Source: Bacteroidota bacterium (GTDB lineage: Bacteria; Bacteroidota; Bacteroidia; 2-12-FULL-35-15). Taken from it: a stretch of 39,239 bases of DNA. Where the stretch lies: positions 1 to 39,239 of the forward strand of contig CANNHN010000015.1 of the NCBI GenBank assembly GCA_947504725.1, in the 5' to 3' direction. The translations under genes were made by a program, and so were the position numbers. Under the pieces are notes generated by a model. The model saw only the letters and a program-made list of their open reading frames with translations. It made no database searches and was not told where the DNA came from. Positions 7,918 through 30,000 of this stretch are shown here, one piece after another (positions within the stretch are counted from its first letter, which is position 1; every line of letters starts with the position of its first letter).

Positions 7918-8361
7918 ATGAACTTACATTTACATTTTATATTAGTTAATTCAGAATTCAATGTTGGTTTAGCTGACGATTTATATAATGGCGAAGAGTC
8001 TGAAGATAATATCAAACATTTATGGGAAGATGAATTCCAAGTTTCGGAGCCTGTAAAGGAATTTAAAATTTCAAATAATGCTATTTATAAGTTGGCTGGA
8101 TTTTTCCCAGATGATAAGCCTTTTAGTTTTGAAGTTTGGGATATGACGATTGTAGACTGTAAAACAGAAAGTGGAAAAGACATGCAGTTTGCAGTATCTA
8201 AAAAGCTATTGAAGAAAACTGAAAAAGTGGTTGAGGAAAACACAAACGACACACATTTATATTTCTATTTAAGAGATGCAATTCCAATGGAAAATCCAAT
8301 GAATGGAGTGTATATTGTTAAAACAGACTTTCCTAAAGAACTTAAAACAAAAACAAACTAA
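7918..8361 (+). CDS. conserved hypothetical protein, soluble
   Basis: A protein of 147 residues starting MNLHLHFILVNSEFNVG at ATG 7918; the frame is open further upstream inside paaY, but this ATG lies 4 bp after the paaY stop and fits operon spacing. I do not recognise a family. There is no signal peptide or membrane segment. It is acidic in the middle, with a Lys/Glu-rich stretch (KKLLKKTEKVVEEN) and an aromatic segment FYLRDAIP. The stop overlaps the next start as TAATG, so it is likely co-translated with the DinB-like gene. Membership of the paa-like operon is the only hint of function. Confidence 0.7.
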   Translation: MNLHLHFILVNSEFNVGLADDLYNGEESEDNIKHLWEDEFQVSEPVKEFKISNNAIYKLAGFFPDDKPFSFEVWDMTIVDCKTESGKDMQFAVSKKLLKKTEKVVEENTNDTHLYFYLRDAIPMENPMNGVYIVKTDFPKELKTKTN

Positions 8362-8816
8362 TGGACAAATTAGCTTTTTTAAAAACAGAATTTCCGAAAT
8401 TAGTAAGAACGTTAAGCCCTGAAGCAAAAGGGGAGTGGGGAGTGTTAAACGGACAGCAAATGGTGGAACACATGGCTGACTCGATTAGTTTTGCGACCGG
8501 CAAAAACAACCAAGCTTTGTATTCCCCAGCCGAACATGTAGAGAAGTATAAGTCTTTTGCGATGAGTGATAAAGAGTTTAAGCCCAATACTCCTAATGCA
8601 TTAATGCCAGCTGTTCCAACTCCAGTGATTAAATCTACAATGGAAGAAGCTGTTGTAGAACTCGAAAAGCAAATTGCTAATTTTATCAATTTTTTTGAAA
8701 CGAATAACGGAGCTACGATTACAAATCCGTTTTTTGGAAATTTAAATTTTGAAGAGTGGGTGCATTTGCTTCATAAACATGCGGTGCATCATTCGAAGCA
8801 ATTCAAACTTTTGTAA
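8361..8816 (+). CDS. DinB/DUF1569-type four-helix protein
   Basis: A protein of 151 residues. An early His in GQQMVEHMADSI (about 31-42) and the C-terminal HKHAVHHSKQF form the spaced histidine pattern of DinB/DUF1569 four-helix proteins, which often bind a divalent metal. A conserved-looking Phe-Trp pair (NFEEWVHL) precedes the last helix. Family members include metal-dependent thiol transferases and many proteins without known role, so the reaction is not predicted. The start overlaps the upstream stop (TAATG) and the gene ends the plus-strand cluster, converging on a minus-strand gene with no gap. No terminator is visible at the junction. Confidence 0.75.
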   Translation: MDKLAFLKTEFPKLVRTLSPEAKGEWGVLNGQQMVEHMADSISFATGKNNQALYSPAEHVEKYKSFAMSDKEFKPNTPNALMPAVPTPVIKSTMEEAVVELEKQIANFINFFETNNGATITNPFFGNLNFEEWVHLLHKHAVHHSKQFKLL

Positions 8817-26554: not shown

Positions 26555-26589
26555 AAAAAAGCCCAAACAAATTTGTTTGGGCTTTTTTT
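26555..26589. terminator. bidirectional intrinsic terminator
   Basis: A perfect GCCCAAACAAATTTGTTTGGGC palindrome (26561-26582; written here as the two arms GCCCAAACAAA and TTTGTTTGGGC) with A and T runs on either side. It serves the LamG gene (plus) and the GNAT gene (minus). Confidence 0.92.
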
Positions 26590-27019
26590 ATATCGTTTTT
26601 ATAAAATGATAGCCCTTTTTTATAAATCCTTCTCTTTCGTAGAATTTATGGGCTTTTTCGTTTTCTAAATAGGCATCCAACATCACTTTTTTGCAATTGT
26701 TTTCTTTTGCTTTGTTGATGCACCAATCACATAATAGTTTTCCTATTCCTTTGGAGCGGTAGTTTTCATCAATCACTACATTGTCCATTTCTAAATATTT
26801 TCCTGAATACAATTTTGTGCTAATCCAATAACCAGAAATTCCAATGCATTTCTCAGAATCAAAGATAGCTACTTGTCCGTAACCGTTTTTAAGCATTTCG
26901 GGAAGTAGGATTTTGTATTCTTCTAATGTTAGGGATGATTGTAATTGTTGAATTATAGAAATGTGAGAGAGCATTTCTTCTGTTGTCTGGAGTTCTTTGA
27001 AGGTGTAAGTGTGATTCAT
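26588..27019 (-). CDS. GNAT family N-acetyltransferase
   Basis: A protein of 143 residues, started at ATG 27019 (MNHTYTFKELQTTEEMLS); another ATG two codons upstream lies inside a palindromic repeat. The acetyl-CoA site is NYRSKGIGKLLCDW (the R-x-x-G-x-G/A pattern, about 88-101), preceded by the strand YLEMDNVVIDE. The C-terminal HKFYEREGFIKKGYHF is the usual GNAT end. The acceptor is unknown. The stop lies in the T run of the bidirectional terminator. The gene has lost or replaced its 5' leader: a 30-nt palindromic repeat ends 1 nt before its ATG. Confidence 0.88.
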   Translation of the reverse strand: MNHTYTFKELQTTEEMLSHISIIQQLQSSLTLEEYKILLPEMLKNGYGQVAIFDSEKCIGISGYWISTKLYSGKYLEMDNVVIDENYRSKGIGKLLCDWCINKAKENNCKKVMLDAYLENEKAHKFYEREGFIKKGYHFIKTI

Positions 27020-27020
27020 T

Positions 27021-27050
27021 GTCATCCCCCTGCCCCCTTCGAAGGGGGAC
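27021..27050 (+). repeat. GTCAT-headed C/G palindromic repeat, copy 1
   Basis: A 30-nt unit: GTCAT head, CCCCCTG, then a perfect CCCCCTTCGAAGGGGG palindrome and AC. It starts 1 nt upstream of the GNAT start codon. It matches the two copies around the DUF559 gene with one or two differences each. Confidence 0.88.
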
Positions 27051-27090
27051 TTGATTATGCTACGATTAAAATATCAGTTAGAAACTTTGT

Positions 27091-27348: not shown

Positions 27349-27409
27349 GATTATCTTGTCTTAATTAAAATTTTATTTTTTGAGTATGTTCATGAATTGC
27401 GCAGGGTCA

Positions 27410-27439
27410 GTCCCCCTTTGAAGGGGGTAGGGGGATGAC
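27410..27439 (-). repeat. GTCAT-headed C/G palindromic repeat, copy 2 (3' flank of DUF559 gene)
   Basis: A 30-nt unit read on the minus strand, with the GTCAT head (27439-27435) 2 nt from the DUF559 stop codon. It is in inverse orientation to copy 3. Confidence 0.88.
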
Positions 27440-27441
27440 TG

Positions 27442-27816
27442 CTACTTTTTGTTTTCCTCAATCCATTGTACAATAGCTCGTTCAACATTAGTAATATGGT
27501 TTTTGACTTCATCATCCGTAAAGCGTAATGTATGAAATCCCAACTCTTTTAATTTTTTATCACGTTCTATATCTTCTTCATATTTGAAATCGTGAGAATA
27601 TCCATCTATTTCAATTATCAAATATAATTCTTTGCACATAAAATCTGCAATATAATTTCCAATTGATCTTTGACGTAAAAATTGGAAACCAAGCATTCTT
27701 TTATTTCTTAAGAGTTCACACCAGATTCTTATTTCTGCTTTGGTGGAATCGTTTCTGAGATTTCGTGCGAATGGTTTTAATCGTTTGTTGTAATGGTTGT
27801 TTAGCTCCGTGAACAT
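27442..27816 (-). CDS. DUF559 endonuclease-like protein bracketed by inverted repeats
   Basis: A protein of 124 residues of the DUF559 family (PD-(D/E)xK fold, related to very-short-patch repair endonucleases). Motifs: ARNLRNDSTKAEIRIWCELL (the conserved start, with Glu), LGFQFLRQRSIGNYIADF (Asp about 68), LIIEIDGYSHD (Glu about 78), and GFHTLRFTDDEV. The acidic residues expected for metal binding are all present, so an active nuclease is plausible. No methyltransferase or restriction partner is nearby. The gene is tightly enclosed: repeat copy 2 is 2 nt after the stop and copy 3 is 5 nt before the ATG, in inverted orientation. This suggests a small mobile unit, but transposition by DUF559 proteins is not established. 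Confidence 0.9.
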   Translation of the reverse strand: MFTELNNHYNKRLKPFARNLRNDSTKAEIRIWCELLRNKRMLGFQFLRQRSIGNYIADFMCKELYLIIEIDGYSHDFKYEEDIERDKKLKELGFHTLRFTDDEVKNHITNVERAIVQWIEENKK

Positions 27817-27821
27817 AATTT

Positions 27822-27851
27822 GTCATCCCCCTGCCCCCTTCAAAGTGGGAC
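27822..27851 (+). repeat. GTCAT-headed C/G palindromic repeat, copy 3 (5' flank of DUF559 gene)
   Basis: A 30-nt unit with the GTCAT head facing the DUF559 start codon, 5 nt away. It ends 16 nt before the stop of the E1 gene. It differs from copy 1 at two positions. Confidence 0.88.
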
Positions 27852-27867
27852 TTGCTCCGTAATTTTA

Positions 27868-30000
27868 TTAGTATGATAATAATTCACCAATCGCTTTAGC
27901 AACTTTGCTTGCATTCGGTAACATCGTTGTCTCTAAAATTGAATTCAAAGGAATAGCTGGTAAATTTTCCGATCCAATAACATCCACTGGTGCATCTAAA
28001 AATTCAAAACATTTTTTCGAGATTCTACCGGCTAATGCTTGTGGGAACCCATTGTTATAAGGTTCTTCTGTAAGCACCATGCATTTTCCGTGTTTTTTTA
28101 CAGATGCTAAAATTGTTTCTTCATCCAAAGGATTCAATGTTCTTAAATCCACAATTTCTACTTGTCCTGGAAAGTTTTTCGCTGCGTTTTTCGCCCAATA
28201 TACGCCCATGCCATAGGTAATGATAGTGATGGATGATGTATAATGTGAGATGGCAAATGTACCATCTTCCATTTTCCATTTTCCATTTTCCATTCCCACT
28301 TCCTGAACCATTCTCGCTTTTCCAAACGGAATAATATAATCTTCATCGGGTTCAATTGTTTTTGCGTCTTCTGTTCCTTTGATTTTACTCCAGTACAAAC
28401 CTTTGTGCTCTAACATTACAACTGGATTCGGATCATAGTACGCAGCTTTCATCAAACCTTTTAAATCAGCACCTGTTGATGGATAACAAATTTTTATTCC
28501 TCGAATATTTGTAAGAATACTTTCTACACTGGAAGAGTGATATGGTCCGCCACTTCCATACGCACCAATTGGAACACGAATGATTGCACTCACCGGCCAT
28601 TTACCATTTGATAAATAACAAGAGCGACTCACTTCTGTAAACAATTGATTTAAGCCTGGCCAAATATAATCGGCAAATTGAACTTCTACAATTGGTTTGC
28701 AACCAGCTGCACTCATACCAACTGTGCTTCCGATAATAAATGCTTCTTGAATAGGTGTGTTGAATACTCTATGATCGCCATACGTTTGAGCTAAGGTTGC
28801 AGCCTCACGAAAAACTCCGCCCAATCTACCTCCAACATCTTGTCCGTACAACAAACATTCCGGATGTTTAGCCATCAATTCACGAATCGCAAAAAGGGCA
28901 GAATCCACCATCACGGTTTTTTCTTTTCCTGCAGGTTCACGTTCTCCTTTTTCTTCTGTAACAGGAGTAGGAGCGAAGTCGTGATCAAATAAATCTTCGG
29001 GACGAGGATCTTCAGCTAACAATGCTTTTTGATAATCGCGTTCTACTTTTTCTTTTGCAAGAAGTTCAATTTCGTTTAATTCAGAAGTTAAAAATCCTGC
29101 AACAATCATTTGATTGCGCAATCTTGGGAATGGATCACGTTTTTGTGCTTCTTCCAAATCATCGCGATACCATTCCTTGCGAACGCCTGATGTATGGTGG
29201 TTCAACAAAGGAACTTTAGCATGAATTAAAAATGGTCTGCGTTCCTTTCGAATAATGGCAATAACTTCTTTAACGGTATTGTACGATTTTTCAAAATCAG
29301 TTCCGTCAATCGTTCTTGTTTCTAAACCTTTAAATCCTTTGGCATATTCGGTTGCATCTTGAGCACGAATTTCTTTTGCATTTGCAGAAATATCCCATTC
29401 GTTATCCTGAACAACATAAAGAATTGGCATCTTTTTCAAAACTGCCATTTGAAATGCTTCGGCAACTTCACCTTCGGTAATACAAGCATCGCCTAAAGAA
29501 CAAACTGCGATTGGTTTGTCGTTTCCGTAATCGGGAAGTAAGTTTTGTTTTTCTAAATATTGAATTCCCATAGCCACTCCAGTTGTAGGAATAGCCTGCA
29601 TTCCTGTTGCAGATGATTGCATTGGAATTTTGGGCATGTCCTCTCTTTTTAAACTCGGATGACAATAATAGGTTCTTCCACCTGAAAATGGATCATCTCG
29701 TTTAGCAAGTAATTGCAACATTAATTCGTAAGGTTGCATTCCTATTCCAAGCAACATGCTGTCGTCACGATAATAAGCAGAAAGAAAATCCTGAGGTAAT
29801 AATTGTAAACCAACTGCAAGCTGAATAGCTTCGTGTCCGCGAGAGGTAGCATGCACATATTTTGCCGTTACTTCTTTGTTGGCTTCGTATAATTCGGCCA
29901 TTGCTTTTGCTGTACACATTAAATCAAATGTTTTCAGCAACATTGCTTCATCAATGGATGAATTTATTTTTCGTTTTTTATCAGTGTTTAATTCCGCCAT
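27868..30000 (-). CDS. 2-oxoacid dehydrogenase E1, alpha-beta fusion
   Basis: A protein of 710 residues joining E1-alpha (about 20-320) and E1-beta (about 360-710), as is common in Bacteroidota. The TPP site is SLGDACITEGEVAEAF through VVQDN (about 168-200). Alpha features include YVHATSRGHEAIQLA and the loop GGRTYYCHPS. Beta features include LLYGQDVGGRLGGVF, NTPIQEAFIIGSTVGMS, VEVQFADYIWPGLNQ and TITYGMGVYWA. It decarboxylates branched-chain 2-oxoacids or pyruvate and passes the acyl group to an E2, which is not in this window. About 22 residues near 563-585 (GMENGKWKMEDGTFAIS) are encoded by an inserted intergenic-type repeat, yet the frame is kept. Confidence 0.93.
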   Translation of the reverse strand: MAELNTDKKRKINSSIDEAMLLKTFDLMCTAKAMAELYEANKEVTAKYVHATSRGHEAIQLAVGLQLLPQDFLSAYYRDDSMLLGIGMQPYELMLQLLAKRDDPFSGGRTYYCHPSLKREDMPKIPMQSSATGMQAIPTTGVAMGIQYLEKQNLLPDYGNDKPIAVCSLGDACITEGEVAEAFQMAVLKKMPILYVVQDNEWDISANAKEIRAQDATEYAKGFKGLETRTIDGTDFEKSYNTVKEVIAIIRKERRPFLIHAKVPLLNHHTSGVRKEWYRDDLEEAQKRDPFPRLRNQMIVAGFLTSELNEIELLAKEKVERDYQKALLAEDPRPEDLFDHDFAPTPVTEEKGEREPAGKEKTVMVDSALFAIRELMAKHPECLLYGQDVGGRLGGVFREAATLAQTYGDHRVFNTPIQEAFIIGSTVGMSAAGCKPIVEVQFADYIWPGLNQLFTEVSRSCYLSNGKWPVSAIIRVPIGAYGSGGPYHSSSVESILTNIRGIKICYPSTGADLKGLMKAAYYDPNPVVMLEHKGLYWSKIKGTEDAKTIEPDEDYIIPFGKARMVQEVGMENGKWKMEDGTFAISHYTSSITIITYGMGVYWAKNAAKNFPGQVEIVDLRTLNPLDEETILASVKKHGKCMVLTEEPYNNGFPQALAGRISKKCFEFLDAPVDVIGSENLPAIPLNSILETTMLPNASKVAKAIGELLSY
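28229..28297. repeat. intergenic-type ATGGAAAATGG repeat inside the E1 coding sequence
   Basis: On the plus strand GATGTATAATGTGAGATGG, then CCATCTTCCATTTTCCATTT and further CCATTTT units. The same blocks flank 33571-33690 and partly 14579-14668. Length is a multiple of three within the frame, so it is translated. Confidence 0.7.

Follow-up and report, generated by a model that had tools for sequence, protein, structure and literature searches.

The window analysed here, a stretch of 39,239 nucleotides from a Bacteroidota bacterium (contig CANNHN010000015.1), contains a small DUF559 nuclease gene closely enclosed by two palindromic repeats in opposite orientation. The question raised by this locus is whether the gene and its repeats constitute a minimal mobile unit, as the original prediction, made without database searches, had suggested. 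We conclude that the segment 27409-27852 likely represents such a unit, a palindrome-ended, homing-like selfish nuclease element. The mobile unit reading is supported and widened by the observations described below; the mechanism beyond the association is inferred, both for palindrome cutting and for the route of copying, and no activity on the palindrome has been shown.

The window unit and its relatives

The features of the window that are relevant here are the following:

27442-27816, minus strand: DUF559 nuclease gene, 124 aa, match to PF04480 (DUF559) with E=6e-31
27409-27439, minus strand: palindromic arm downstream of the gene, type D, differing from the family core by 1 mismatch
27822-27852, plus strand: upstream palindromic arm, inverted with respect to the downstream arm, one G-block base changed
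27021-27051, plus strand: solo copy of the window palindrome, beyond the DUF1456 gene
27853-27859, plus strand: TGCTCCG, immediately outside the upstream arm

The window protein scores 107 bits against PF04480 (curated cut-off 20.6) and accordingly qualifies as a DUF559 member; apart from a sub-threshold match to MTES_1575 nuclease, Pfam yielded nothing else. On the minus strand, the downstream arm consists of GTCAT, a C-block, TA, a C-block, a loop and a G-block, and together the two arms form inverted repeats of 31 nt that are complementary at 29 of the 31 positions (94 %), with both GTCAT heads pointing at the gene. The arms start 2 nt past the stop and 5 nt ahead of the start of the gene, and the whole unit spans 444 bp. 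The original prediction had described these repeats as 30 nt long with at least 27 of 30 positions identical, and held in this respect as well as for the two gaps, the gene-facing heads and a third copy near 27021. This solo copy overlaps the first possible start codon of a GNAT ORF (26588-27025, minus strand), and the segments 27019-27053 and 27820-27854 are direct copies that are 94 % identical. The motif TGCTCC also borders palindromes in loci L002, L004, L009 and L011, as noticed by eye and without a statistical test.

The label 'hairpin' held only in part. The upstream arm, which carries a GTGGG change, folds as single-stranded DNA no better than shuffled sequences (z +0.79), compared to z of -2.38 for the downstream arm and -2.11 for the third copy; across seven stretches, one of which (from L011) was cut short and lacks the first half of the arm, z ranged from -2.7 to +0.8. 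RNA folding of 189 arms gave a mean z of -1.7, with 49 % of the values below -1.5. A strong hairpin at every arm is thus unsupported by either set of z scores, and 'palindromic repeat' is the safer term because the upstream arm folds no better than shuffles. As a separate observation, the E1 dehydrogenase gene of the window contains an in-frame short-period TTTTCCA repeat around 28268-28296 (MENGKWKM in the protein), and the E1 alignments of most genus relatives start only past this repeat.

The genome that harbors the window (3.40 Mb, 43 contigs) encompasses three PF04480 matches, all bounded by inverted palindromes, and the three copies possess three different palindromes: the window type with the core CCCCCTGCCCCCTTCAAAGGGGGA, CCCCCTGCCCCCTCGGAGAGGGGG at the L011 gene, and CCCATCCCTAACCCTTCCCAAAGGGAAGGG at the L009 copy. 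PF04480 is represented in 31 of the 36 genus genomes and in 102 of the 198 sampled genomes of the class. The wider Bacteroidia set comprised 140 unique domains (all 67 genus rows, 27 new class loci and 46 regions drawn from the better-scoring class matches), 131 of which are near-complete with 300 bp on either side. An inverted-repeat score of at least 14 between the flanks was obtained for 99 of these 131 domains. Among intervals of matching size from the same loci, 2 of 479 reached this score, and among swapped flank pairs 180 of 1297, the latter rate being raised because related units have palindromes in common. Within the genus alone, arms were found at 51 of the 57 eligible domains (flanks of at least 200 bp). 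When the Bacteroidia set was divided by setting under a looser flank rule, 36 of 53 in-frame domains had arms, as did 57 of 71 that stand alone; at other genes in the DUF559 loci, inverted arm pairs were detected in only 4 of 265 cases.

Similar results were obtained with named genomes, where arms are present at 42 of the 71 eligible domains in the best 80 loci (four of which duplicate the first set); the corresponding counts were 2 of 371 for intervals and 53 of 701 for swaps. The arm-positive loci come from cyanobacteria (L247, L281, L288), Bradyrhizobium (L313), gammaproteobacteria (L249, L262, L263) and Patescibacteria (L265, L280, L317). In eight named genomes (six cyanobacteria, Bradyrhizobium and Methylomonas; 27 rows), 16 of 24 eligible domains are armed as opposed to 0 of 42 intervals; 8 of these 24 were already in the best-80 set, and 10 of the other 16 rows, two of which are one region, are armed. 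No arm pair at score 14 was found for 32 of the 131 Bacteroidia domains and 29 of the 71 eligible named ones; the named loci without such a pair include L260, L282, L307 and several flavobacterial loci, and the archaeal in-frame copy (L240) reached a score of 11.5, below 14. In the Bacteroidia set, the armless domains include 17 of the 53 that are in frame and 14 of the 71 standing alone. The units with arms (n=101) span 365-726 bp (median 491) and encode the nuclease. Collectively, these counts show that inverted arms occur around DUF559 domains far above chance and that the palindrome-armed class is present in several bacterial phyla. The original prediction would have been refuted if such repeats were no commoner near DUF559 than elsewhere, which is not so, or by a relative with the gene in the same place and no repeats, none of which was seen in the data at hand.

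The candidate active-site residues E28, D58, E69, D71 and H75 (window numbering) are all present in the window protein and are conserved in 132-134 of 134 domains. Purifying selection acts on the nuclease, as dN/dS is 0.04-0.16 in 15 of 17 hand-chosen pairs (Nei-Gojobori; several pairs with dS >1), 0.58 in one near-identical pair, and one pair saturated. The AlphaFold2 model of the window protein (mean pLDDT 90.9) matches 3hrl, the putative endonuclease NGO0050 of Neisseria (Z 16.2), I-Bth0305I (Z 12.5) and Vsr (Z 9.4), so that a PD-(D/E)XK or Vsr-type fold with an acidic active site is predicted by the model. The relation to I-Bth0305I is also supported by profile (E 1.1e-5) and Foldseek (E 1e-4) comparisons, which satisfy the criterion set for it, but the link is remote (20 % identity), and a phmmer search with the window protein alone did not list I-Bth0305I at E<=1. 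The extended DNA-binding regions of I-Bth0305I (PMC3943268) are missing from the 124-aa window protein. A DUF559 gene has already been assigned to the EDxHD family (PMC9403480), and a Caulobacter DUF559 protein has been assigned to mismatch repair and is reported to act like Vsr (PMC12907096).

Covariation of nucleases and palindromes, and filled and empty sites

Palindrome sequence tracks the nuclease rather than the genome. Across 9060 pairs without detectable flank homology (137 of the 198 eligible units), palindrome similarity correlates with domain identity (rho 0.38), a value reached by none of 300 permutations. A within-genus comparison was designed to exclude genome background: mean palindrome similarity was 0.33 for nucleases less than 50 % identical in the same genome (n=31) vs 0.72 for nucleases at least 60 % identical in different genomes (n=31; p=1.7e-9, the pairs not being fully independent), and the within-genus Mantel rho was 0.57 (0/500). 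An exception is the pair L046/L104, with a nuclease identity of 0.83 and a palindrome similarity of 0.33. This covariation is as expected under the original suggestion that nuclease and palindrome spread together or that the former recognises the latter; physical recognition or nicking is still an inference.

The palindromes also occur without the nuclease. The type-D core (up to two mismatches) was found at 13 places in the genome under study, 3 of them inside the window, and in 12 of the 36 genus genomes including this one (13 places in G000, 23 in G009, 17 in G016 and 16 in G034); the type-A core was found in 19 of the 36, and the reversed-pattern controls gave 0 matches for both types. Type-A solo copies are commoner in genomes with an A-armed unit (8 vs 28 genomes, Mann-Whitney p=0.0037). 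Four genomes without an A-armed unit hold 10-18 type-A copies (G002 and G033 with similar-armed units), and, despite many palindromes, we were unable to find units of the matching type in G016 and G034 (type D) or in G023 and G035 (type A). The abundance of type-D palindromes in G016 and G034, where no arm-matched DUF559 unit was found, speaks against a strict version of the nuclease-palindrome idea. No palindrome-only indel of type D was detected in five orthologous region pairs of G034 and G016.

Presence and absence of units at orthologous sites was observed within one genus. At metH site 1, 20 of the 30 fetched genus loci could be parsed: 7 contain a nuclease unit, 1 a deleted unit that keeps both palindromes, 3 a solo palindrome, and the remaining 9 a short linker or some other sequence. 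Here, G016 carries a type-A and G034 a type-B unit; their metH flanks agree in 946 of 1000 and in 928 of 1001 columns. Among the acs loci, 19 of the 29 examined could be parsed, with 3 filled and 16 not. One otherwise empty acs gene (L188, in G035) retains a short CCCCTCC..GGTGGGG remnant at the insertion point, which could possibly be the footprint of a lost unit. The original prediction had proposed a search for empty sites in relatives, and at the window site, E1 and DUF1456 lie no more than 260 bp apart without an intervening DUF559 gene in 11 of the 29 E1 loci examined in relatives (by eye); one of these, L209, contains a solo type-D palindrome, also identified by eye. The exact ends of the window unit could not be fixed because the intergenic DNA is too diverged. 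Other repeats in the same region downstream of E1 include a GTCATTGCGAG...GAAGCAATCTC palindrome of another family in L226, and tandem AATTCGAACTCGAATGAAAC-type repeats were seen downstream of E1 in L236.

Target-site duplications of at least 4 nt were found for 10 of 73 units, compared to 6.5 (sd 2.5) in shuffles, and duplications of at least 5 nt for 0 of 73 vs 1.7 in shuffles. The earlier statement that no target duplication is visible thus held, with none above chance across the 73 units, and a target-duplicating (DDE-type insertion sequence) element was rejected on these grounds.

In-frame insertion into host genes

The analysis added an observation that was absent from the original prediction, namely in-frame insertion of members of the same family into housekeeping genes. 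In both sets together, 75 of the 201 sampled domains are framed on both sides, 105 stand alone and 21 are one-sided; host identity was checked only for Pfam-scanned representatives, not for all 75. In the Bacteroidia set, 54 of the 140 domains have an open frame of at least 60 aa on each side. One of these 54 (L099) is no insert: by eye, it is a zinc-ribbon-like repeat protein whose C-terminal part gives a weak DUF559 match in a different architecture. The hosts of the other 53 are leuS (21), metH (13), acs (6), recJ, recG, ileS and a SpoIIE-domain sensor (2 each), a UvrD-like helicase, a CoA-transferase III and hsdR (1 each), as well as one peptidase and one paaZ-like gene that were identified by eye. 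By eye, the leuS units fall into two sites, with 13 and 8 units, and the metH units likewise into two, with 11 and 2. Pfam searches (E<=1e-5) with 17 host proteins, 10 Bacteroidia representatives and 7 named loci, showed that host domains flank DUF559 on both sides or are split by it. Among the hosts in named loci are the hsdR gene of a Methanophagales archaeon MAG, the hsdM gene of a gammaproteobacterial MAG and a methionyl-tRNA ligase. In the genome of the window itself, the L009 copy lies in frame within a 782-aa ORF, two stretches of which match the acetate-CoA ligase model TIGR02188 above its cut-off (acs).

On the FastTree tree, the in-frame state is clustered, with 13 changes compared to a shuffled mean of 60.5 (minimum 50). 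Among 39 units in leuS, metH or acs, the host changes 7 times on the nuclease tree (no shuffle control), which suggests that units pass from one host to another; in addition, there is vertical inheritance or homing at a single site. Of the 75 in-frame domains, 46 are preceded by an ATG within 45 codons, vs 95 of 104 stand-alone ones. No intein family was among the Pfam matches of the 17 in-frame host proteins (E<=1e-5), and no intron RNA within the insert was detected by Rfam in eight loci (6 in-frame, 2 stand-alone); an intein or intron is thus rejected for the scanned examples. The sole Rfam hit, a group II intron (RF00029, 68 bits) at 3113-3187 of L012 on the minus strand, is located outside the insert, downstream of the metH insert and close to the contig end. 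As far as can be inferred from sequence alone, the insert stays in the host protein.

Interpretation, alternatives and known systems

In the explanation that we consider likely, the element would be formed by one DUF559 nuclease gene of the Vsr/EDxHD fold with its own palindrome inverted at each end; related nucleases tend toward related palindromes, and unrelated nucleases toward different ones. The nuclease would recognise its own palindrome or a similar structure and then nick or cut the DNA, and recombination or repair synthesis would insert a copy of the unit at the break, in a homing-like rather than cut-and-paste manner. Solo palindromes may be by-products or non-autonomous copies. In coding regions, only copies that keep the frame in tolerant loops would survive, and the nuclease of such a copy would be translated as part of the host enzyme. 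Homing in the proper sense, that is, cutting of the gene-less allele followed by copy-in, is inferred; what has been seen are filled, empty and solo-palindrome sites only.

Several alternatives need to be weighed against this explanation. The nuclease could be a repair or restriction enzyme (Vsr-like mismatch repair) around which REP-like repeats or terminators have gathered by happenstance. The Vsr fold, the Vsr-like action of the Caulobacter protein (PMC12907096) and the location of REPs mostly downstream of coding regions (PMC3733652) are compatible with this view, and Rfam and PADLOC scans of a few examples fail to separate the repair and mobile readings. However, flanking inverted pairs are rare at other genes in the same loci (4/265), the palindrome type tracks the nuclease across sites and within one genus, and a repair gene is not expected inside leuS, metH or acs. 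Moreover, the arms of in-frame units cannot end transcription because they are translated, so that terminators are rejected as a general account; altogether, we regard this alternative as unlikely. The same assessment applies to the possibility that the units are non-autonomous inserts moved in trans, for example by a RAYT-type HUH or IS200 transposase, with the nuclease as a passenger. An association of REP elements with RAYTs is documented for other bacteria (PMC3733652), solo palindromes exist without a unit of their type, and the absence of target duplication would fit IS200/RAYT chemistry. Yet a passenger is not expected to give palindrome-nuclease covariation or strict conservation of the catalytic site; the matter is not closed in the absence of a RAYT census.

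The least plausible alternative, which we consider very unlikely, is that the host enzyme benefits from the in-frame inserts, as domesticated domains or as inteins or introns that went unrecognised. Repeated hits at the same loop, in the two leuS and two metH sites distinguished by eye, and the low dN/dS could be taken in its favor, but no intein domain was detected in the 17 host proteins and no Rfam intron in six in-frame loci, the same site is insert-free in other genus genomes, and unrelated hosts are found on neighbouring branches of the nuclease tree. We also rejected a defence system, PADLOC having returned no match for two of three proteins and a weak one, to DpdF, for the third, and a phage vehicle, with 12 viral loci vs at least 562 relatives in genome contigs; the latter counts are only a hint because the collections and search patterns differ.

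The preferred reading, a homing-like selfish element, can be extended to a bolder one, to which we incline by a small margin only: DUF559 units would form a cross-phylum selfish class in which homing-type nucleases, each lineage with its own palindromic ends, invade both intergenic DNA and the frames of essential enzymes without splicing and persist as an extra domain of the host protein, and many RAYT-less REP-like palindromes would be their non-autonomous offspring. Either reading offers a function for DUF559, a large family without an assigned role that is rarely mentioned in the open literature searched, and a candidate driver for palindromic repeats without a known transposase. The lack of a dedicated transposase for CGTC REPs is a stated open point (PMC3733652); no CGTC REP is linked to DUF559 in the present data. 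Furthermore, a mobile gene in frame in leuS, metH and acs without a splicing signal implies that essential enzymes can carry a foreign nuclease domain. In the open-licence literature searched, we found no report tying DUF559 to palindromic ends or in-frame insertion, which is weak evidence of absence; 'DUF559' and 'palindrom' occur together only in papers that, judged by title or abstract start, deal with CRISPR or NAD.

The mobile-element idea could be tested in a laboratory strain because the DUF559 gene ycjD of E. coli K-12 MG1655 adjoins a similar multi-copy palindrome, C-rich/G-rich and alike by eye. In L417 (8204-8422), two inverted palindromes, 8217-8241 and 8396-8420, lie by ycjD and are 80 % complementary; both are on its 3' side, and 8396-8420 overlaps the gene end. 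The 8217-8241 palindrome occurs in 5375 of 5426 E. coli genomes, at a median of 18 places per genome, and coverage of the ycjD stretch reaches 80 % or more in 3362 of the 5426. A clean empty site was not found in three strains lacking ycjD beside fabI (L418-L420), where a tetR gene and an RND efflux adaptor gene are present instead. With YcjD as the query, viral contigs yielded no relative, and 43 of 72,556 plasmid records contained matches.

Among known systems, the REPtrons are similar in that a gene is bounded by short palindromes of its own type and related solo copies are dispersed, which is the case for the DUF559 units. REPs can also sit inside ORFs, and RAYTs serve GTAG REPs (PMC3733652). 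However, RAYT is an HUH tyrosine transposase whereas DUF559 is a PD-(D/E)XK/Vsr-fold nuclease, so that the HUH criterion is not met, and DUF559 inserts the whole gene unit in frame rather than the palindrome alone. The EDxHD homing endonuclease I-Bth0305I is the nearest functionally characterised fold; the DUF559 units differ in that no intron or intein was found and in their compact single domain, palindromic ends and many unrelated sites. Vsr and VsrA share the fold, and VsrA contains a DUF559 domain (PMC12907096), but the DUF559 units behave as dispersed elements with palindromic ends. Segments of Legionella genomes that are repeated and act as rearrangement hotspots also contain DUF559 genes; these segments additionally hold a transposase, and no palindromic ends are mentioned (PMC12308824). 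The Rickettsia palindromic elements (RPE) similarly place palindromic DNA in frame within protein genes, but they are about 150 bp long with no nuclease mentioned (PMC10969869), in contrast to the nuclease-encoding DUF559 units of 365-726 bp, which do not qualify as RPEs. Finally, inteins place a homing nuclease in frame inside essential enzymes, as the DUF559 inserts do; unlike inteins, the DUF559 inserts have no splicing domain that we could find and do not meet the criterion of self-splicing.
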